64,000 nt of DNA from Allacma fusca (taxonomy: Eukaryota; Arthropoda; Collembola; Symphypleona; Sminthuridae), in NCBI GenBank assembly GCA_947179485.1, contig OX359250.1, positions 18,024,539 to 18,088,538 on the forward strand. The letters run 5' to 3'. Shown in pieces: positions 4,551 to 53,720 of this stretch. How positions within the stretch are numbered: the first letter of the stretch is position 1; each line of letters begins with the position of its first letter. A program made the translations under genes and the position numbers. Under the pieces are notes generated by a model. The model was not told the origin of the DNA, made no database searches, and was given only the letters and a program-made list of their open reading frames with translations.

Positions 4551-5640
4551 CGTTCCGACTGCCCTGGGACAGAGACTCATTTGGGTTCTCCCCAACATTA
4601 TTTCACTCATAGATCAAAGAAATCTTAAATTGAAAATATTTTCCCAATTGGTGAGTCAAACGAGTAAAGTGCACTGCTGGGGAATGAAGAAATCATTTGA
4701 CAAAGTCCCAGCTCACAGAATACTGTACATTTTGTAAAGTACGCTGGAATTGTCATAAAGGATTTACCAACTCCAAAGGAATTGAGAAAATAATTCGCAA
4801 ACCGCATAATAATTGAGGAAAACATTTGTACAACTACGTAAAAAATATTGTCCTCCCCCAAACCTCCTGCTTACTTACCTCCTAGGAATTTTCAAAACTA
4901 TTTCTCCCATAGACGAAAATAATCGTGAATTGAAAATATTTCGCCCATTGGTGACCTCGTAATCAACGCAGGGTGTACTCACATGGTAATTGCTACCTCT
5001 GCATATTTTTTACAAGACTTTGTGTACACTGGAACTGACCATATTTTAATTATTAATAATTATTTCTTTGTACGTTGTGCTGCCCTATTGTTCACGTTTA
5101 GTTTTCTTTTTGTTTTGGTTTTGTTTTTCAAATAAAAAATATCCGTTGTAGAAAATTAAAATTAAAAAAAACGCGATTTGTACCAACAAACGTTTACCAA
5201 AGAATTACGAAAAGAGGACTGAAGTGGCAGTAATTTGACCAGGGATTTAGAAATTGAAAAAAACTTTACACAATTGTTTTACAAAAAAGTATTCTGATAA
5301 TGTCAAAGTGTTTTAGCCAATTTATGGTTGTCATAAATATTTCGCCAAAAGAATATAAAGTGACACAAGCCCCTCCCGGTCTGCTTTTCTACCCAAGTGT
5401 CAACGTTCACATTTTGGAAATAATTGTGAAGACCTCCATTTTTTGGATAATTCCCCAAAATTTAACTTCGATTTGAATTTTGATCTTTTTGTAATTATTA
5501 CATTTTGAAATGATGAGCTCATAAGTAATCACACGTAGCCTGACGGAAGTCACGAAGCCTCAGATAATGTATCATATGAGTGAAGACAGGGTTGAATTAC
5601 GATCTCAATCCCAAATTTGTATGGATCATGTTCCTCTTCA
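4550..5640 (+). repeat. rep-F dispersed repeat
   Basis: The stretch 4553-4890 is nearly the same as 32822-33145. The stretch 4940-5300 matches 42360-42680, and parts match 12530-12660, 15080-15290 and 54000-54260 on either strand. No coding capacity was seen. Confidence 0.6.
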
Positions 5641-6640
5641 CAATACAATTATTATTCCTACCAAGACAAAAACCCTTGCATTGTTAATCGTAGTTACGTC
5701 GCTACCAAAAGACAACATTTCCGATGATGCCAAGCACGAATAGTAAGTTGGCCAAAAACATTGGCCAATGAACATTGTGTGACATAGGACGTAGTCCAAA
5801 AAATAAACTTGCGTGTATTGAGAAAATATGGATAGGAAATGCCTCCACTTGCTTGGACAGCAAAGTTTCGCAAGATTTTCTTGACTCCATCATATGACAC
5901 TCAATGTTAATCTTTGGACTCTTTTCTACTCCCCACAATGTTAATTTTCCGACGATTCCTTTTCATGCTCTCGACTGTCAACCCGGAACTTCCTTCCCCT
6001 CGCTTTCTCTAATTTGCTCCCTCTGCTAATGTTTTTACTAATTGTGAATGTGTATTATAATTTATTCCTAAATATTAACTAAATGTCTAAATGTCTCCAC
6101 TATATCACCAAATACAGTCATTTACATTCAATTCTTCGGTAACCAGAGTTTTTGACCTACCGGAACAGAGCAAATTTCGAAATATCTAAAATTTGCAATC
6201 TAGTACATGACTATTAATTATAAATATTTTTTCCAATAAGTAAGGAAATATTTTTAATCATTGACATTTTTCTATGGAAAAATTTTTCTATGGTGGTGAA
6301 AATTGTTTGAAATTCCTCCGTCAGAAAATTAACATTATGGGTTTGGAAGGAGTTCAAAAAATAGCATTGATGGGAATATGACTCGGAAAATTCCATTCTG
6401 AATTGAAAATTTTCGGTTCAGTCGACATGGATCGGTTGTGTCCCTCACCTCACATCTCCCTGACATCTATTGATATAAGCGTCAGAATAGACAAAAACCA
6501 ATTTGCTTGGTCATTTTATTTTCTAAGGAAACTGACATATGGAGTTGAGTTTCTGGGGAATAGTATCATACGTTTTAAGCCTCATGTGAACATGTTCTTG
6601 TAAGGAATCTAATATGGTGCGAGGTGTGAGTGTTAAATGG
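5640..6640 (-). repeat. rep-C dispersed repeat, fuller copy
   Basis: Carries both rep-C halves in the same relative order as 34410-35620, joined by the 'cttcggtaacc...gacctaccgga' segment. It is the reverse of the copy at 11270-12240. Near 5965 it contains the site that is occupied by the 8.2-kb transposon at 44967-53184. Confidence 0.65.
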
Positions 6641-10829: not shown

Positions 10830-12250
10830 AATGTTAATTTTTGGCCAACTTCCTATGCGTGCTCGACATTGTCACGTTTTACCAGGAAATGCTGTCTGTT
10901 GGTAGCGACACAGCTGCAAATAACAATGCAAATGCTTTCGTCTTGGTTTTATTTTATGCATGTGTTTTCGGTGAGCCTGCCGACTGGTCCACATTCTCTA
11001 AAGCTAATCCTTATTACGTAATGCGAAGGAGGAAGTTCCGACGCTACAACTATTTCATTGTTTAAGGTTTGGCTATATCAGGGAGATATCCGAGCGATGT
11101 GATGGAGACATCGGAGCAAACTATTCAAATTTTGGTTAAACAAATCCGTGATTTTTAACACCCCGTCCAAATGTCGACTAGGATTTCGAAATATTTTGAG
11201 GTTTTAAAATCATTAATCATGTTTTTAATGAGACATTAATGACTGAGAATCTCATCGAACGATAATTTGTCATAAGGGGAAAAGTGATGTCTCAGATTAC
11301 TTCTTGACGAAAATGTGCGTTGAAATTTTTTCTTCCCATCCCCATAATGTTAATTTTCTGCCGGAAGTGCAGGAATTTAAAACAATTTTCCCCACCCCAG
11401 TCTATAATAATAATAATAATAATTTTATTTAGGTCGATTTTTGGCCAAAGCCTTTACAACCATTACGATTCATCTTCATTTACATGCAGGATTTTAAAAC
11501 AATTTCCCCCACCCCAGTCTATAGAGAACGGTTAAGGATAAAAGTTTTATTTCTGGTTACCGAAGAATTGAATGTGAATGACTGGATTTGGTGATAGTAG
11601 ACATTTAGCTAATATTTAACAATAAACTATAAAATACATTTACAATAAGTAAAAACATTAGCTGAGGGAGCAAATGTGTGAAAGCGAGGAGAAGGAAGTT
11701 CCGGGTTGACAGTCGAGAGCATGAAAAGGAGTCGTAAGAAAATTAACATTGTGGGGAATGGAAAGGAGTACAAAGATTAACTTTGAGTCACATATGATGA
11801 AGTCGAGAAAATCTTCCAAGCAAATGGAAGCATTTCCTATCTATATTTCCTCCAGACACGCAAGTTAATTTTTTAAACTACTTCCTATGTCACACAATGT
11901 TAATTTTTGGCCAACTTCATATTCGTGCTCGGCATCGTCGTCTTTTATCAGGAAGTGTTGTCTTTTGGTGGCGACGTATCTACGAGTAACAATGCAAATG
12001 CTTTCGTCTTGGTTTATTTTTATAAACTTTTTTCCAGTGAGCCTGCCGACTCTCCCACGTTCTTACGGAAAATCCTTGAATATTTGGGGGAGGAAGTTCC
12101 AACGTTACAATAATAATTATTTCATACAATTACCTACTTTTGAAAAGCATTGTGAGTACACAAAGAATTACGGATTTTCCAACTTGTAAAAATTTCCCAC
12201 ATTTACATTTCTATTATTTCCCTTAGTTGAGTAGGAGAGTAAGAATGATT
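10830..12250 (+). repeat. rep-C dispersed repeat, one partial and one fuller copy
   Basis: A partial copy (10830-11080) is followed by a fuller plus-strand copy (about 11270-12240). A short AAT microsatellite lies at 11403-11428. At about 11722 the sequence 'gacagtcgagagcatgaaaa' is the unoccupied counterpart of the target site of the transposon at 44967-53184. Confidence 0.65.
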
Positions 12251-44879: not shown

Positions 44880-44966
44880 TTAAGTACAATAAGTAAAAAC
44901 ATTAGCTGAGTGAGCAAATGTGAGAAAGCGAGGAGATGGTTGTTCGGGGTCGACAGTGCAGAGTAT
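44880..44966 (+). repeat. rep-C, left half of the copy split by the 8.2-kb transposon
   Basis: Matches 11640-11735 ('agtaaaaacattagctgag' to 'cagtgcagagtat') and continues at 53185. The duplication CAGAGTAT is at 44959-44966. Confidence 0.85.
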
Positions 44967-44984
44967 CGGGTCTGGAATAAGTTC

Positions 44985-45243
44985 CAAACTCCCGACTAAC
45001 CTAAATTGGGACTTCCCCGACTCAAACACGAAATTTCCCGACTACCATTTTCCAAATTTTTCCGAATTCGTCGAGTTTTCCCGACGTCCCCGCCACCAAA
45101 ATTTCCAAAAATTTCCGAATTCGTCGATTTTCCTTAACGAACCCGGTAGGAATATTTCCAAAAATGTCCCGACTTTCATTCAAGACATTTCCCGACTAAC
45201 CGTCCCTTTCCCTCTTTCCGACTCCAAAATTTTTCGACTTGGT
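44985..45243. repeat. Left subterminal CCCGAC-rich array of the 8.2-kb transposon
   Basis: Repeats of TTCCCGACT, TTCGTCGAGTTTTCCCGACG and CCCGCCACCAAAATTTCC. It is related to the right array at 52640-53110 and lies in the same orientation rather than inverted. Confidence 0.85.
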
Positions 45244-45502
45244 TAAATTTGCTGTACTGCTTCCATCAGCAACTCAGAAATTCCAGCCATCTTATATTTT
45301 GACATTATGCGAGACTTAATGTGTACAGCGTGTCGAGAACAAAATACTCAGGAGTACAATTTTTATTATACATTTTTATAAATTTATTATCCAATGAAAA
45401 CCTTATTCCCACCATGAATTTCAAAAATCAAAATTATACATACAATTCAGTCACACAAAGATCTGAATACTGACGGCATCAACCGTTTCTCACAAAACCC
45501 AG

Positions 45503-47228
45503 TCAAAAAGGAATGCCGATAACATCCAGAATGGTTTGAAATACTCCCGGAGGTTTGATACTCGTCGTATCAGGTGAACATCTGGAATCACCATGTTCTG
45601 TATTCCAATCATCCAGCTTCCTGACAAGAGCAGGTGGATTAGCTGGCGCGCATTTTTTCAACGCTTTCTTGAAATCAGTTTGCAATGCAAAAGAAATCAG
45701 TCTGCAATGCAACAAATCAACTGCTTATCAGGTTGTGATCCGGGTTTATTTTAATATTTAAAATCTTACGACAACAATAGGTCGAAGTATGTGTGATCCT
45801 GGCGGATGTTTGTTTGACTTCCGTGTTGACATATAATCTCTATAAGGTTCCAGGCCCGCCTCCGTAACGACAGTTTGAATATCCGATCCAGAATATCTAC
45901 AAAGTAAAAACCAGTAGTATCTTCATTTCTTCGATATCAAAATATAAATCGTTCAGCTGTTAACCGTATTTTTCATTATGCATTAAATAATAGAAGCAGT
46001 AATGCTTATAATACGTACCCATCAGTTTTTGTTGCCACGTAATTGATTTCACCGTCTGTTAAACATGCCGTGTACGGTTTCAATTTCGACCTGATTATTT
46101 CGGCTCGGTCATTTATTTTTGGTAACGGCACATACACACGACGGGGAAACCGTCGCATAAAGCTTGCGTCGATGGCAAAAGGTTGGTTTGTTGCACCAAC
46201 AACAAAAACTCCTGTCATATCCTCCATCCCATCCATCTCGCAAAGCAGAGAATTCTTGAATCGCCTGGAGCCGTCGGACTCATCTGTTCGACTTGCGCAA
46301 AAAGAATCGACTTCGTCAATAAAGAGTATTGATGGCCTCCGTTTCCTTGCCATTTCAAATAAACCTCGCACAAGCTTTTCTGATTCGCCAACCCATTTTG
46401 ATAGCAGCATGTCCGGACGGACGGTTATAAATGTTGCGTTGTTCGCTTCAGCTGCCAAAGCTTTGCATAGCTGTGTTTTTCCAGCACCACCAGGCTAAAA
46501 TATAAAACAATGTGTAAACATGTAAAGAGTTCAAATGGTGTACAAGTAAATACATGCCACGGATAAGTGGGTTATACAATGCAGAAATTTACACCAAATA
46601 AAAGAAGCCCTTTGTGAGCAAAAGATGCCTGTGGGGAGCCTGGAAACAGGATAGGATTAAGAACAGCTTCCTGCATTGGACCCTTCGCTTCTTCAAGCCC
46701 AATGACATCATCCCACTTCACAGTAGGCTTCGAAATACACACTGCGGACTGGAGGCTCTCTGGAACCTCAGCATCCATACCAGATTTAGCAGTACATTCC
46801 GATTGATCCTCATTTGCCATACACGGCACCTGGGATTGCTGTTTATCGATGTACGCATTCGTATGCAACCTCTCTGAAGGACAGTCGTTTGTCAACAACT
46901 CATTAGCTCGTTTGGCGTATAATGCAACATTATTAATTACAAACTGCTTCTCCGCGTCATTCAGGTCGTTTCCTATACAATAAAACAGTATTACCCAATG
47001 CAACATTTAGATGTACACGGTAAACATTAATGAAACCAGTTGATTCTTACCTTCTAACGTTTTTATATAAACACTTACTGCTTCGATGTACTTGCCCGCA
47101 GCAATAAGCTTTTGACTGGATTTCTCACACAGCACAGCATTTGTGACCAAACGGGCTGCAACTTCAAGATACGTAGTGGCAGAATTCATGCTTACAGAAT
47201 TACTATTGTCTCTCAGATTAACTTTCAT
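45503..47228 (-). CDS. VPS4-like AAA ATPase with MIT domain, five exons
   Basis: Exons by GT-AG sites and phase: 47228-47051, 46972-46593, 46494-46019, 45896-45770, and a last exon starting 45667 and ending at the stop 45503, giving about 441 residues. The N-terminus (about 10-85) reads as an MIT helical bundle, which in VPS4 binds ESCRT-III tails. The AAA domain has VKWDDVIGLEEAK, Walker A GPGGAGKT (186-193), the pore loop SKWVGES, Walker B LFIDE, GATN, and arginine fingers in MRRF (about 299-302), then TDGYSGSDI. The C-terminal helices (FKKALKK...WNTEHG) match the VPS4/katanin end, but the VPS4 beta-domain insertion is missing. Walker A is unusual (PGGAGKT for PPGTGKS). All catalytic motifs survive. 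The first four exons join in frame; the last acceptor is doubtful. The role in the transposon is unknown; katanin-like identity is the alternative. Confidence 0.85.
45671..45714 (-). repeat. 22-bp tandem duplication at the last acceptor site of the ATPase gene
   Basis: 45671-45692 and 45693-45714 are two copies differing at two bases. Read on the minus strand, the outer copy has a good acceptor (TTGCAG before ACTGATTTC) but splicing there puts a stop in frame. The inner copy has TTGCAA and cannot be used. A weak acceptor (TTTCAAG) just inside restores the frame. Confidence 0.85.
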
Positions 47229-47731
47229 CTAAAACACTTCCAAACGGAGAGATCAGTTTAAGAGTGCAGGTGATCAACGAGGAGCGGGTGCCGCCGTAAT
47301 GACTGGATTTTTCCAAAGCTTCTGCTACTTGGCGTTTAAATAGTATATTTCCACAGTCCAAAACGGTATAAATAAGTGCTTCCTTTCTCTTTTCGTAAAC
47401 TCATTCTCATTGTTCACATAAATCGTTAATGCACACACTTAATCCTTGTTACTGGAAGAAACTAAAATACATCGCCTTTCAAATTACACTGGTTTGAACT
47501 AGATTTTACAAGTACTTTACAATGGAAAATCAATGAGTCATGAACCAAAACATTCTCCCACTTTAAAGACACGCTGAATTAAGGTCACCAAAATCTTAGT
47601 CCATTTGCAGTTGTGGTGACAACTTCAAATATTCTATGTACGCTGGGGCTTTATTTGTGTAATTTTGTGTTTCGGACGAGCTTTGGTCAATCTTAAATTG
47701 CTACATAATAACAGTGGTTAACAAAATCGCC
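47229..47731. promoter_or_regulatory. Divergent intergenic region between the two transposon genes
   Basis: About 500 bp between opposed start codons, so it should hold both promoters. A TATA-like 'tataaata' occurs near 47369. A TTTTAG directly before the ATPase ATG could be the acceptor of an intron in the 5' leader. Neither is established. Confidence 0.4.
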
Positions 47732-50700
47732 ATGCCAAAGCAGACTTCACAAATTGTCAGAAAAAACCGTGTAAGTGTTATTTGCTCGTATTGTGGCAAG
47801 TCCGTGACGCGAGATTACTTAACCAAGCATACGATCGTGAAACACGGTTACAATTTGCCAGTACTGGAGAAGGGGCAGTCGTCGATCGCATCATTTTTAA
47901 CCCCAAAGCGTCAGAAAATGGATACAGATAATCACACTTATTCCAGCGAAGCCGAGAAGATTGGTTCGAGCGAAGCCGAGAAGATTTGTTCGCGCGAAGC
48001 CGAGAAGATTTGTTCGCGCGAAGCCGAGAAGAAGTCCAGAAGATTGGTCGGATCGAAGACGAGAAACTTCGTTCGAGCGAAGCTAATGCTGCAGCGGAAA
48101 AATTATCCACATATTTTCCTACTATTCCAGACAGATAATACATGCTTTGATACTAAGCAAGTACAAATGCTGGAAGACTTACAAGTTGTAAGATCTTTGC
48201 AGAACTGCAACACTGACGAAAGTCGAAGACAAGTCTTGAACAGATGCAGCAACATGAAAGAACGCATCCTTGATTTAGGAAGACAAGCTCCAGAAATTTA
48301 CTGACAAACAATTCCTATTGACGACTTCACCCAGCGAGTACTACCACCGGACTGGAACTATAAAGTTGCAAAAGTTGCCGACAACGGGAATTGTTTGTAC
48401 AATGACATCTCCGCGGGATTAACGGGTGAGGAGAACTTGTGCCACTTAATTCGGCTCTGAGGTACAGAAAATAATGGAAAATAAGGATAATCTCACGTAT
48501 ACCGTGCAAAATAAGTCCTCACTGACGAATTTAGGTAAAACATACAATAAGCTTATACAGGACACCAGCAAAGATCACGACTGGGGAGATGAGGCAAATA
48601 TAGTAATTGCGTCCGCCATAATAAACCGCCCAATTGACATAATCCCCATTTTGGACAGTGGAATAATGTCAGCTCGAATGAGGTACAACATTAACCCAGC
48701 CGTTGAACACCGTCGACCGCTGCAACTTGTGCTGTACAAAAAACATTTTCAACCCTTACTTCGTCTATCGTATGATGAAGCACCGGTGCCGATAGATGGA
48801 GTGTACAACAATTGCATAGACAGTGACTTCCGTATTCACATAGATGCCGAAGGTAGACCAGTTCTTGAGGATGTAGGAGCGGCTTTTTCAAAGATTTTTT
48901 CCGACATGGAACTTGGTGATGATGATGAACATTCTGAGACACGTTATTGTGATGACAGATGGAATAAACTCACTGCCTCTGACAACAACGCAAAGGACAA
49001 GTCCAAATCACCATCGAACGTTGTTGAACCATCTGGGACGGCTAAAGAACAAGGTAGGTCATCTAATACCGGTCATTTCACACATGTACAATTACCACGG
49101 GACATAATAGGGACACAATATTTGACAGCAGCAAGTTCCAGCGCCAGCAGTACATGTATTAGTTCAAAAGCATTCTCAAGTACCGCAGAAGACTCGACAG
49201 AGGACACTGGAGAACACTTGCCAACTTTGACGATCGCAACTACAAATGATCGTGACAGGGTTCGTAGTCTGGAAAAGGGAGATGTAAACCAAAGCGCTAT
49301 GACAGAAAAGGTACAAACCCCTACGTCAGTTGAAGGTGCGGATGATAGACGAGATGACGTTACCGATAGCTCCTCGAGTCCATGTAGTCCAGTGGACACA
49401 GTTGATTGTGACAAATTGAAACTGAAAAAAATATCCAGCAGAAATTTGTTGAAAACACTCGGCGACAAAGTGGACGGGCTCGCTAAGCAGTTCAACTCTA
49501 TGTTTATTAAAAAACCAGATGATGATATCTCATTCAGCTCTCAGTCGACCAAATCAACGGAATCGCTGACAATGACAACCGCTAGAAGCGTGGAAGACAT
49601 ACTAAAAACATATTACTGCTTAGAAACCAGATGTGACCACAGAGAACCGTTAACTACCGAAGAATTTACTTCCCTAATTTGTAATTTATGTTTTGACGAG
49701 AACAAGAGGAGCAGTGTAGGCGAGTTCAAGTACAGCTCAAAAAAAGGTACACACTTTAAAACAAAAGAGAAGCAACCAAGATCATTTATCAATCTAAAAA
49801 AGAATATTATGGAGCACATGAACGCTCCTACGCATTTAAAAAACGCAAATGAAGAGGAGAAAATGGTATTGCAGAGAAGCAAAACAATACACAACAATAA
49901 GGTAGCAGGAATGAACTGTGGAAGATTTGCATATACTTGCATAAAAGATAGTGCAAATTATGCAGCTTATGAACCGCATCTTGCTCTTGCTAACAAGAGT
50001 GGTTGCTTTGTTGGAGACATCAATCACAGCCGGAAGTTCTGTGCTGACGTTAGGCACAGCGTTTATTCAAAACTATACGAACGAACAAAGTGTATTTTGA
50101 ACACTCCTCGTAAAGGTACGGGGCGTCCACCTCCTGTTGGCATATTTGCAGACAAATACACCCCAAACAGACAGACTGGCCAAGTTGTTGGGCTCGTTAC
50201 ATTCCTAAATGGAAATGTTGAAACTCTCAATGTTGGATTTGTCCCCGTTCCTGATCACAGTCCTCGGGGATTAGCTGATAGCATCCTGAAGCCCATTAAT
50301 GACGTGATAGTCGGAAACTTGGAGAAACGGTAAGTTTACCATAACGGAATATTCGTAATAGTAAATGGTGTCAGTACTCAATATGTAATGACATATCAAC
50401 TGAAGTCTCCCAAGCGTATGACGTTACTTTGATTACATCATAATTGTAATTGTTTCTTGTAGGACTGTTAATGGTGCATTTGACGGGGAGTATTTCATTA
50501 AAAAGGCCACTGACGTTATAGCGGAATCCCTGTGTCACGGAACTGACGCTCATTGGCTTACGCTCCAATGGGATGCAGCACACAGACTTGAACTATCCGT
50601 AAAGGAAGCACTGGGAACTACATCAAGAAACTCTACTCCGACATGGTTTTCAACTGCTATTCTGGATACTGTTAATAACGTTAATGACAAATACAGGTTT

Positions 50701-51910
50701 GGATCCCGTTACGGCGAGCTTATCTCTGCCGAGGCAACATGTCAGCCAAAATCGATTTCCAGTCACCGCTTTGCCTCGTATAGTCACAAGGCAATTGATA
50801 ATTTTATTAAGAATTTTATGTACATTTGCGAAGACCTAAACTATCATGCCGATCCCGAGGCAGATAATGTCAATCATGCTTCATTTGTTTTGGGACTAAC
50901 GTTTTCCAAGGATTTGTATAAGATTATCAGTGATGTCTCTAAAACAACACAGAGAGTTCAAATGTTACCATGGCAAATGAACAAATATGTTACAAAAAGC
51001 TACCACTGACAAATTAAAGATAATAAAACGGTCCTTAGATGTAGGTGAACCCATTCCTGAGGCTGATTTTCCTACATTCACTGCAGCAGTTTCCGAATTG
51101 GACACCTCTTCCGAGTACCAAGGTAAAGCCATTTTGATGCGCAGGATGCAATATTATGCCACCAGGGGTTCAACACATTCCCAAGACACACGGGTGTCTC
51201 ATTTGGAGGAAGCAGTAAGCTTTGTAGTGAAGCATGCCGGAGCGTTAATGGAAAAACTGGTAGATGACTTTTCCACTCGAGGTGGAAGCTAACTCGTGTA
51301 AAGAAATGCATGAAATTATAAGACAATGTTTTCCCGCCGATCAAGTAATCAGTCATGCGGAAAGCAACACCGTTCCTTCAGAGTTTCTGGAGTATGCAAG
51401 GAGGGCACTGAGGGCTGGCTACTTGGAAGAATACAATGAAGAAGATCTGTGTGGTCAATACAAAACTTTCGCAAAATACGTTGCAGAAGAATATCCAATG
51501 TATAATAATACTGACAATGATGATGAATACAAGATGTACTGTAAGGTCATTAACTCCGATTCCTCGGTGCATATGAAGGATACATTCACTTGCTAGCCAG
51601 TGCGATCCTCCGATCTCCGAATGAGGCCCCAGCTGAAAGTATGGGCAATAAGATTAAAATCCACGAACAGGGACGGGCTACAGATTTTTCTGCTATAGGG
51701 GAAGAGGTTTTCATAGCTTGGAATGGTCCAAGTGCTCCCTTTGCAGACGTTCTCATTAAAGATTCTCTAGATCTGCATTTTGACGACGACAAATCGTGGC
51801 ACTTCTTACGTACTAGCCCCCTGTACAAGCTTTGTGCGCGTGAAATTTCGCAAGTTGTAGATAGAGTGCTAAAAGAGCAAGAAGCGAAAACTAGGATCCA
51901 TTACAAGTAA
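47732..51910 (+). pseudogene. Zinc finger - OTU protease - hAT-like transposase gene, broken
   Basis: The N-terminus has a C2H2-like finger (CSYCGKSV...KHTIVKH), a PIP-box-like QSSIASFL, and 8-residue repeats near SREAEKIC. An OTU cysteine-protease core follows: VADNGNCLYNDIS, with a likely catalytic His in LYKKHFQPLL. After a Ser/Thr-rich linker come hAT-like parts: IFADKYT (first acidic residue), FDGEYF, WDAAHRLEL, then SPNEAPAESMG (likely catalytic Glu) and FIAWNGP near the C-terminus. An intron 50330-50462 (GTAAGT...TTGTAG) joins in phase. Damage: TGA at 48302, frameshifts near 48040, 48435-48470, 51000, 51280 and 51570. The long intact block 48474-50329 has 618 codons. OTU cleavage of ubiquitin-type chains is a family property, not shown here. 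Confidence 0.8.
50330..50462 (+). other. Intron in the OTU-transposase gene
   Basis: Donor G/GTAAGTTT, acceptor TTTCTTGTAG/G. Exons join as CG+G in phase, and the joined protein continues RTVNGAFDGEYF. It is 133 bp. Confidence 0.88.
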
Positions 51911-52639
51911 TTATTCCGATTCATGTCGTTACAAATGTATTCCGCGATTTTCATTAATTGATTTTGAGCAGATTTAATAGAAAAGTGTATGTAGACAATT
52001 GTTCCTATACTTACGGCGGTTTGAAATAGTTCCAAACTTTAAAGTAACAAATTTTTGAACGAAATGTCAACTGTGTTCCAGTTGGTTAACTACTTCGCCG
52101 TAGAAAAATCCCAAAATTTTTGTCCACTTTTCTGATTTTGTCAACTACCTAGGGGAGAACAATTCCAAATTTTTTGTCAACATTTCTGATTTTGTCAACT
52201 ACCTAGGCGGAGAAAAATCCCACAACTTTTGTCAACTTTTCTGATTTTGTCAACTCAACCGTTTAACCTCACAGGCAGTGTCATGGTCGAAATCAAACAT
52301 GGGCAAAGTATTCGCATACTTTAAATCCTACATATTTTAAGGTTATTACGTATAACCTACATTTTAGCCTACATAAATCACTCACCTACAACCGACATAC
52401 CTCTTTGTCGTACTTGATTCATACCTGCATAACCAAAATGAAATTATGCAAATATATATTCATTGTAAATAATTTCCTCTTAATTTAAAACTAAACAATA
52501 CATACATAGTTGGTAATGAAAATGCTTGTTCAAGTCAGATGTTACATCAGCAGTGTTTTGGGTGTGCTACTTAATTAAAAGAAATTTGTGTTGTTTAATT
52601 AGTAATTCACTGATTTCAATAATGAATAGGGAAGAAGAA
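51911..52639. repeat. Non-coding 3' part of the 8.2-kb transposon with a three-copy repeat
   Basis: From about 52090 to 52255, three units of about 60 bp share 'gtcaacttttctgattttgt' and 'actacctaggcggagaa'. The rest shows no gene. Confidence 0.6.
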
Positions 52640-53110
52640 ATCGAATTTCCCCGACAGGGAAAATTCAAAAAAATTCCGACTTCGTCGAGTTATCCCGACG
52701 ACCCTGACAGCCAAACTTCAAAAAGAATTCCTACTTCGTCGAGTTACCCCGACGACCCCGCCACCCAAATCTCCAAAAAATTTCCGAATTCGTCGAGTTT
52801 TCCCGACGTCCCCGCCACCAAAATTTCCAAATTTTTCCGACTTCTTCGGGTTTTCCCGACGTCCCCGCCACCAAAATTTCCAAAAATTTCCGAATTCATC
52901 GAGTTTTCCGGATGTCCTCGCCACCAAAATTTCCAAATTTTTCCGACTTCTTCGGGTTTTCCCGACGTCCCCGCCACCAAAATTTCCAAATTTTTCCGAC
53001 TTCTTCGGGTTTTCCCGACGTCCCCGCCACCAAAATTTCCCGACTGCGTCGAGTTTTTCCGACGACCCCGCCAGGGAAAATTCCGAAAATTTTCCGACTT
53101 CCCTGGTATC
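52640..53110. repeat. Right subterminal 53-bp tandem array of the 8.2-kb transposon
   Basis: About seven units of 53 bp. The CCACCAAAATTTCC anchor is at 52815, 52868, 52921, 52974 and 53027. The unit contains TTCGGGTTTTCCCGACGTCC. Because 53 is not a multiple of three, successive units pass through all frames, creating open frames of up to 195 codons that are artefacts. Confidence 0.92.
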
Positions 53111-53184
53111 TAAAATCCCCGATTATGACGGGTCACTTCCCCGACTTACCGGGTTCGCAGGTTAGAGAACTTTTTCCAGACCCG

Positions 53185-53720
53185 CAGAGTATGAAAAGTA
53201 ATCGTAAGAAAATTAACATTATGGGGAATAGAAAAGATTTCAAAAAATAACACTGAGTGACATAAGATTGAGTCGGGAAAATCTTCCAAGAAAGTTGATG
53301 CATTCCCTATCGATATTTCCTCCATACACGCAAGTTTATTTTTGGGAATACGTCCTATGCCACACAATGTTAATTTTTGGTCAACTTTCTATTCGTGCTT
53401 GGCATCGTCGCCTTTTATCAGGAAATGTTGTCTTCCGGTATTGATGGTTAACTAGGAGTAACAATGCAAGTGCTTTCGTCTTGGTTTATTTTAAGCATGT
53501 GTTTTCAGTTAGCGTGCCGACTGGTCCACGTTCTTTCAAGTGTAGTTCTTTACTGAATGTGGAGGAGAAAGTCCCAACGTTACAATTATTTCATACGATC
53601 ATCTAGTTTTGACATAAATTGTGAGTATATAAAGAATTGCCGATTTTCCAACTTGTAAAACTTCCTACTCGTACATTTCTATTATTTCCCTAAGTGAGGT
53701 AGGAGAGTAGAAATAATTGT
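53185..53720 (+). repeat. rep-C, right half of the copy split by the 8.2-kb transposon
   Basis: Continues from 44966: 'agtatgaaaagtaatcgtaa' onward matches 11725-12240. Shares the duplication CAGAGTAT. Confidence 0.85.

Follow-up and report, generated by a model that had tools for sequence, protein, structure and literature searches.

The 64,000-nucleotide stretch of the genome of the collembolan Allacma fusca analysed here (the window; G000:C9:18024539-18088538, contig OX359250.1) contains an 8.2 kb hAT-type mobile element (positions 44967-53184 of the window), which holds two divergent, spliced genes: a VPS4-like AAA ATPase on the minus strand and, on the plus strand, a transposase with a zinc finger and an OTU domain. 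That a single mobile unit encloses the two genes is observed directly, and the anatomy of the element is hardly open to doubt. The best explanation, to which we give moderate confidence, is that the element is a relic of a two-gene hAT transposon whose ATPase was retargeted and served the element, while any specific role for this ATPase can be put forward only tentatively. The copy in the window is not intact but damaged in both genes, which corrects an earlier picture of it.

The borders of the element are clearly marked. Its 18 bp terminal inverted repeats (TIRs; 44967..44984 on the plus and 53167..53184 on the minus strand) are identical as inverted repeats at 17 of 18 positions, and the target-site duplication (TSD) CAGAGTAT is found on both sides (44959..44966 and 53185..53192) with agreement at 8 of 8 positions, so that both the short TIRs and the 8-bp TSD are those of a hAT element. 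The ends begin with CGGGTCTGG and not with the CAGRG-type start that is usual, i.e. common but not defining, in this superfamily. When 400 bp of each flank were joined with one copy of the TSD and aligned within the window, the joined flanks aligned unbroken over the junction with three repeat copies (11641-12111, 34862-34413 and 6045-5660; 82%, 81% and 78% identity to the joined flanks, respectively). A first-pass annotation of this DNA had described the inverted ends with their perfect 8-bp duplication, the halves of a repeat (termed 'rep-C') that rejoin when the element is removed, and two divergent spliced genes inside a single mobile element; all of this is borne out, the genes by their exons and by the splice junctions of two NCBI proteins of A. 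fusca (P0001 and P0121), and the mobile nature of the unit by TSD, empty sites and a second locus in other flanks. The three repeats represent the family that received the insertion.

This second locus was found in a search of the genome (392.74 Mb, 91 contigs) with four coding queries, namely the protein of ATPase exon 3, the DNA of the ATPase gene, the protein of a transposase exon and a transposase DNA stretch of 4.1 kb. Each query revealed one other close locus only, at C8:57.12 Mb (L029, hereafter copy 2), the genes of the element being present as DNA in two genomic places. Copy 2 shares 95-97% identity with the window in three long blocks and about 89-90% in the right-end repeats. The two genes are retained in it along with the right TIR. 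Missing are the first 82 bp of the element and hence the left TIR, none being found in the 3 kb beyond the broken end, as well as a stretch matching window positions 51760-52499. It also contains a 948-bp insert (L029 reverse complement 4838-5785) with inverted ends TAGGGTTTGTCGATTTTTAAATGCCA and bordered by an apparent 8-9-bp direct duplication ACATGTATT, which is a nested transposon of another family. A segmental duplication of the locus was considered and is ruled out, as the flanks of copy 2 are unrelated to, and show no match with, those of the window.

The lesions in the two copies differ. The window transposase is interrupted at five places, once by an in-frame TGA and four times by a break of the frame; copy 2 is open at each of these and broken at others. 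In the window ATPase, exons 1-4 are open and exon 5 is out of frame; in the ATPase of copy 2, exon 2 contains a stop and exon 5 is open, with additional amino-acid changes. The splice sites of this gene are intact in both. Because the lesions are private to each copy, the common ancestor of the two independent insertions held both genes together. Both coding copies are relics, and the ATPase is part of the mobile element, not a chance neighbour. The presence of the ATPase in independent insertions, which the first-pass annotation had left to be looked for in the genome, thus holds for 2 of 2 coding copies, both of which carry both genes.

The ATPase gene comprises five exons. Exon 1 (47051..47189) encodes a MIT-like domain below the Pfam cut-off, exon 2 (46593..46972) the end of this domain, the linker and the start of the AAA domain, and exon 3 (46019..46494) the AAA core (PF00004, 1.8e-32 for the window pieces) with the rest of Walker A, the pore loop SKWVGESEKLV, Walker B (FIDEVD), GATN and SRRF. 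Exon 4 (45770..45896) contains GYSGSDI and a shortened remnant of the beta-domain region, and exon 5 (45503..45701) the Vps4 C-terminal helix region, which is shifted in the window copy by a 22-bp duplication within 45671-45712 that is absent from copy 2. P0001 is 100% identical to the window ATPase and has the first two splice junctions as read here, i.e. both junctions of exon 2, before it ends inside exon 3; the contigs that bear P0001 and P0121 both measure 6497 bp and are probably identical. The ATPase matches PF00004 (1.9e-34) and AAA_lid_3 (5.5e-10), while the MIT profile (positions 2-64 of 66; 15.8 bits, cut-off 30) and the C-terminal part of the Vps4_C profile (25-60 of 61; 14.4 bits, cut-off 21.3) are matched below their cut-offs. 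The motifs of the AAA motor are kept, including a Walker A of the form GPGGAGKT and a pore loop identical to that of a mosquito VPS4; by contrast, MIT domain, linker and beta-domain are altered or shrunk. The beta-domain is mostly gone in the alignment to host VPS4, in which the aligner set the last helix differently, and MIT domain and linker appear unconstrained in comparison with host VPS4.

That the ATPase is VPS4-like, as the first-pass annotation had proposed, is corroborated by introns, domain order and AAA motifs. Residues 2-401 align to residues 2-398 (of 444) of solved VPS4B (E 2e-73). Identity to host VPS4 amounts to 37% in the whole-protein alignment, 52% over 161 residues of exon 3 and 51% (225 bits) in the AAA core, for which a host katanin reaches 46% (174 bits). 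The introns of host VPS4 (L031) lie at SIK/Y (phase 1), in the linker (phase 2), at FG|P (phase 0), at G|YSG (phase 2) and at VTM|S (phase 0). All four introns of the element ATPase match introns of this gene in position and phase, unambiguously so at FG|P and G|YSG, while the first and last matches depend on the alignment of diverged flanks. The linker intron of host VPS4 is absent from the element ATPase, and the host gene probably has a further intron near its start. The FG|P intron is missing from four other host genes, all named by resemblance: two katanins, one of which also reads through the other two testable sites, a fidgetin-like gene and an ATAD1-like gene. In a tree of the AAA core the element joins VPS4 and katanin to the exclusion of three CDC48 rows (100/100), with a branch length of 3.2 as compared to mostly 0.02-0.35 in the VPS4 rows. 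Since the tree with this very long branch does not settle the sister group, the case for VPS4 descent is built on introns and architecture. These indicate that the ATPase goes back to a VPS4 gene of an animal and has since diverged strongly, and they suggest that the VPS4 gene was captured at the DNA level, whole and with its introns. The identities of 52% in exon 3 and 37% overall rule out that the element took up today's host VPS4 in recent times.

Two further loci, L039 (G000:C1:81.66 Mb) and L041 (C12:36.72 Mb), contain AAA-type fragments that are very similar to each other (SKWHGESEKLVHGLFEQL...) and unlike the host VPS4 and katanin genes read here; they possibly belong to a dispersed AAA gene family. 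Searches of viral contigs yielded three weak AAA matches only with P0001, and no match with the transposase relative P0122.

The transposase gene (47732-51910, plus strand) is interrupted by a GT-AG intron (50330..50462), at which P0121, a part of the same transposase, is joined and at which P0122 and P0125, pieces of one transposase relative, break. Its N-terminal part (47732..48449) encodes a weak C2H2-like finger and the first part of the OTU domain, and includes a 24-bp repeat (47941-48032) and the in-frame TGA (48302-48304); the first frame break lies near 48450. Downstream, 48450..50329 encodes the remainder of the OTU domain (PF02338, E 1.6e-4; 22.6 bits, cut-off 23.3), a linker, a stretch that by eye is rich in Cys/His, and the first catalytic D (ADKYTPN). 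The region beyond the intron (50463..51910), into which the other three frame breaks fall, contains the second D (FDGEY), DxxH (WDAAH), a helical insertion and the E region (EAPAESMG, a variant shared with P0125). The corresponding motifs in P0123, P0124 and P0127-P0131 are ADK/GDK, FDGEY, WDxAH and CEAxxEGMG (the first D of P0128 being listed apart from the other motif rows). The putative catalytic residues thus follow the hAT order D, D, C/DxxH, E, and the hAT fold, an RNase H core with a large helical insertion, is present; C/DxxH is described as a shared signature (PMC9587614). No Pfam hAT model was matched at E 1 by six pieces of the window transposase or by five relatives, and a profile search against PDB sequences gave no useful match. 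The hAT-type OTU-transposase of the first-pass annotation is upheld by OTU domain, fold and motif order.

A. fusca harbours 14 more distant transposase matches (28-40% identity). By comparison of the listed coordinates, none of these 14 has an ATPase match within 100 kb, and no VPS4-type match was found in the two loci that were fetched (C1:43.9 Mb and C10:21.16 Mb), which contain broken transposases and, by eye, Gypsy-like frames. For this reason the ATPase is so far a trait of one family, and of the two origins that the first-pass annotation had offered, the capture of an ATPase gene is favoured, while a regular second gene of a lineage of large hAT-like elements goes beyond these results. 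At the C1 locus (L034; G000:C1:43.91 Mb) the transposase relative (about 22-39% identity) is spread over several broken frames, and the 10 kb that hold it also include a reverse transcriptase frame that by eye looks Gypsy-like.

A genome search with the terminal 200 bp, as suggested by the first-pass annotation, did find other copies of the ends: at least 39 scored places for the left end (of 161 candidates, the window included) and at least 40 for the right end (of 209, including the window and copy 2), both counts being lower bounds. The best 20 of the 38 other left-end places were fetched with about 10 kb each, and in none of these 20 loci did tblastn detect any of ten coding pieces. Fifteen of them are two-ended derivatives of 293-2510 bp with a convincing right end; the other five (L016, L017, L018, L021, L025) are left-end pieces with no recognised right end. 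A perfect TSD (8/8) is present in 11 of the 20, and at L019 it agrees at 5 of 8 positions. In L011, L013 and L015, which lie on C8, C48 and C1, the TSD 8-mer is offset by one base and is the same (TCCGGAAC) in all three; either the elements entered members of a single repeat family or an inserted element was later duplicated, so that this is perhaps one event. In L010 (144-2653; G000:C9:45684243-45686752) the subterminal repeats have expanded to an array of ~2 kb with 8/8 TSDs kept, a transposon end becoming satellite-like DNA.

In the window copy the left subterminal repeats (45049..45169, plus strand) comprise 2.3 copies of a 53-bp unit. At least part of them is present in all 20 fetched loci, and they probably form the transposase-binding region. 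On the right, 53-bp tandem repeats occupy 52660..53101 (plus strand; about 7-8.5 copies), and a 55-bp tandem repeat (52088..52255, plus strand; 3.1 copies) is gone from copy 2 together with 51760-52499. The 542-bp region between the divergent genes (47190..47731) is conserved in copy 2 and is presumed to be a promoter common to both.

hAT elements move by cut-and-paste, VPS4 hexamers thread and unfold protein, and OTU domains cleave ubiquitin. The plus-strand gene would accordingly provide a transposase whose N-terminal part combines a C2H2-like finger with an OTU deubiquitinase domain; the latter could strip ubiquitin while the transposase cuts and pastes at 8-bp target sites; the ATPase may have been a retargeted hexameric unfoldase in service of the element. 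It would most likely dismantle a ubiquitin-marked protein assembly on element DNA, candidate substrates being the post-transposition complex or a repressive host complex, and the short derivatives, consisting of both ends and subterminal repeats only, would be moved in trans. Retargeting is suggested by the contrast between the conserved motor and the altered parts that select partners, and a ubiquitin-linked substrate is favoured because the partner gene has a deubiquitinase and the 542-bp region probably drives both genes. We propose, as a conjecture, that an OTU-bearing animal hAT lineage may have recruited the VPS4 motor as a dedicated second gene; together with the deubiquitinase of the transposase, this motor would make up a machine, encoded by the element itself, for unfolding DNA-bound protein that carries ubiquitin.

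Several results weigh against a VPS4-derived ATPase in the service of the element. Many CDC48-type double-AAA proteins outscore VPS4 in protein and PDB searches (CDC48-type chains ranking higher in the latter by their summed double domains), no close ATPase relative outside A. fusca was found among the best 120 of 2682 matches, and the pN/pS contrast combines the host branch with the element branch. Moreover, with two coding copies only, one of them without its left end, a TSD is visible around a single ATPase-bearing insertion, that in the window. An origin from another meiotic-clade AAA protein, katanin-like, draws on two host katanin exons with 56% and 52% identity to exon 3 (126-128 residues, lower scores), on a short C-terminal region without beta-domain that by eye resembles host katanin, and on the approximately unbiased (AU) test, which rejects neither sister (p-AU 0.31 for VPS4, 0.28 for katanin). 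The tree that the first-pass annotation had recommended places the ATPase inside the VPS4-katanin group and does not settle its sister; however, the fit of all four introns to host VPS4, the lack of the FG|P intron in the host's two katanin genes and its fidgetin-like and ATAD1-like genes and the higher core score of VPS4 make a katanin-like source quite improbable. Finally, there is no significant constraint on either gene since the copies separated: 374 codons of the ATPase show 15 non-synonymous against 7 synonymous changes, with a ratio of non-synonymous to synonymous rates (dN/dS) of 0.64, and 754 codons of the transposase give a dN/dS of 0.79, with a Fisher p of 0.31 in both cases.

This last result, the lesions in both ATPase copies and the 14 distant transposase matches without ATPase would also fit a passenger, i.e. 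a divergent VPS4 paralogue of this or another species that was taken up and carried unused. The transposase, which the element needs, is equally unconstrained after the split, so the test does not separate cargo from service; furthermore, the ATPase frame and AAA motifs survived a saturation-level divergence from VPS4, and no such paralogue was found in the A. fusca genome, the next match to exon 3 by score being ordinary VPS4 (52%). Mere cargo is in our view rather unlikely. Less likely still is an ATPase that acts on host ESCRT-III/VPS4, by mixed hexamers or at the nuclear envelope, for access to nucleus or germ line: MIT-like domain and C-terminal helix are recognisable, albeit below cut-offs, and the pore loop is that of a mosquito VPS4, yet the parts by which VPS4 chooses its partners look unconstrained (MIT, linker) or are mostly gone (beta-domain). 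Both ends occur widely in the genome, for the most part in short elements, and the first-pass annotation had reckoned with two unrelated short elements on either side of an ordinary host gene pair, or with complete copies all devoid of the ATPase. The former is refuted by the matching TSD, by the empty sites across the junction and by copy 2, where the two genes and the right end recur between different flanks, and its probability is negligible; the latter was not observed, both coding copies carrying the ATPase.

The element resembles the hAT superfamily (Hermes, hobo, Ac) in its 8-bp TSD, short TIRs, fold, D/D/DxxH/E order and cut-and-paste anatomy with short derivatives, and differs in its ends, N-terminal OTU domain, divergent ATPase gene, length of 8.2 kb and lack of a Pfam hAT match. 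With VPS4/SKD1, the ESCRT-III disassembly ATPase, its ATPase shares the apparent order MIT-linker-AAA-C-terminal helix (MIT and helix below the Pfam cut-offs), pore loop, Walker motifs and intron positions and phases; low identity, the diverged MIT domain, the mostly lost beta-domain, the Walker A GPGGAGKT and the carriage of the gene by a transposon set it apart. AAA+ ATPases also act in target choice or in disassembly of the transposition complex in bacterial transposons (MuB, TnsC and IstB as partners; ClpX, a host protein, acting on MuA), although these are bacterial and belong to other AAA+ branches.

Extra enzyme genes in cut-and-paste elements, such as dioxygenases, helicases and nucleases, are already known. 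TET/JBP genes occur inside DNA transposons of several superfamilies including hAT7, likewise as added genes within TIR elements, some of which carry an alpha-kinase gene opposite in orientation to the transposase (PMC12730594); there, a DNA-modifying enzyme is found in many families, here an AAA ATPase in one element family of an animal. Kolobok lineages possess lineage-specific accessory enzymes beside a DDD/E transposase, namely RecQ helicases and nucleases (PMC9587614, a text in which the word ATPase is absent). OTU-type protease domains are found in or beside the proteins of Helentrons (PMC6431247) and Ginger elements (PMC2836005), which are of rolling-circle or Gypsy-integrase type and not hAT; the available portions of both papers, the former of which describes a planarian retroelement whose AAA region resembles midasin, do not mention VPS4. 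Listings of open-licence PMC papers showed no DNA transposon of a eukaryote that carries an ATPase of the VPS4 type. The element suggests that a hAT transposon took up an entire animal gene with its introns at the level of DNA. If its ATPase disturbed host ESCRT, a transposon would have exploited a pathway best known from virus budding. If the ATPase instead served transposition, the need of hAT complexes for active disassembly would become testable, and eukaryotes would have a parallel to bacterial transposons and their AAA+ helpers, in the form of a cut-and-paste element that encodes an AAA unfoldase of its own.

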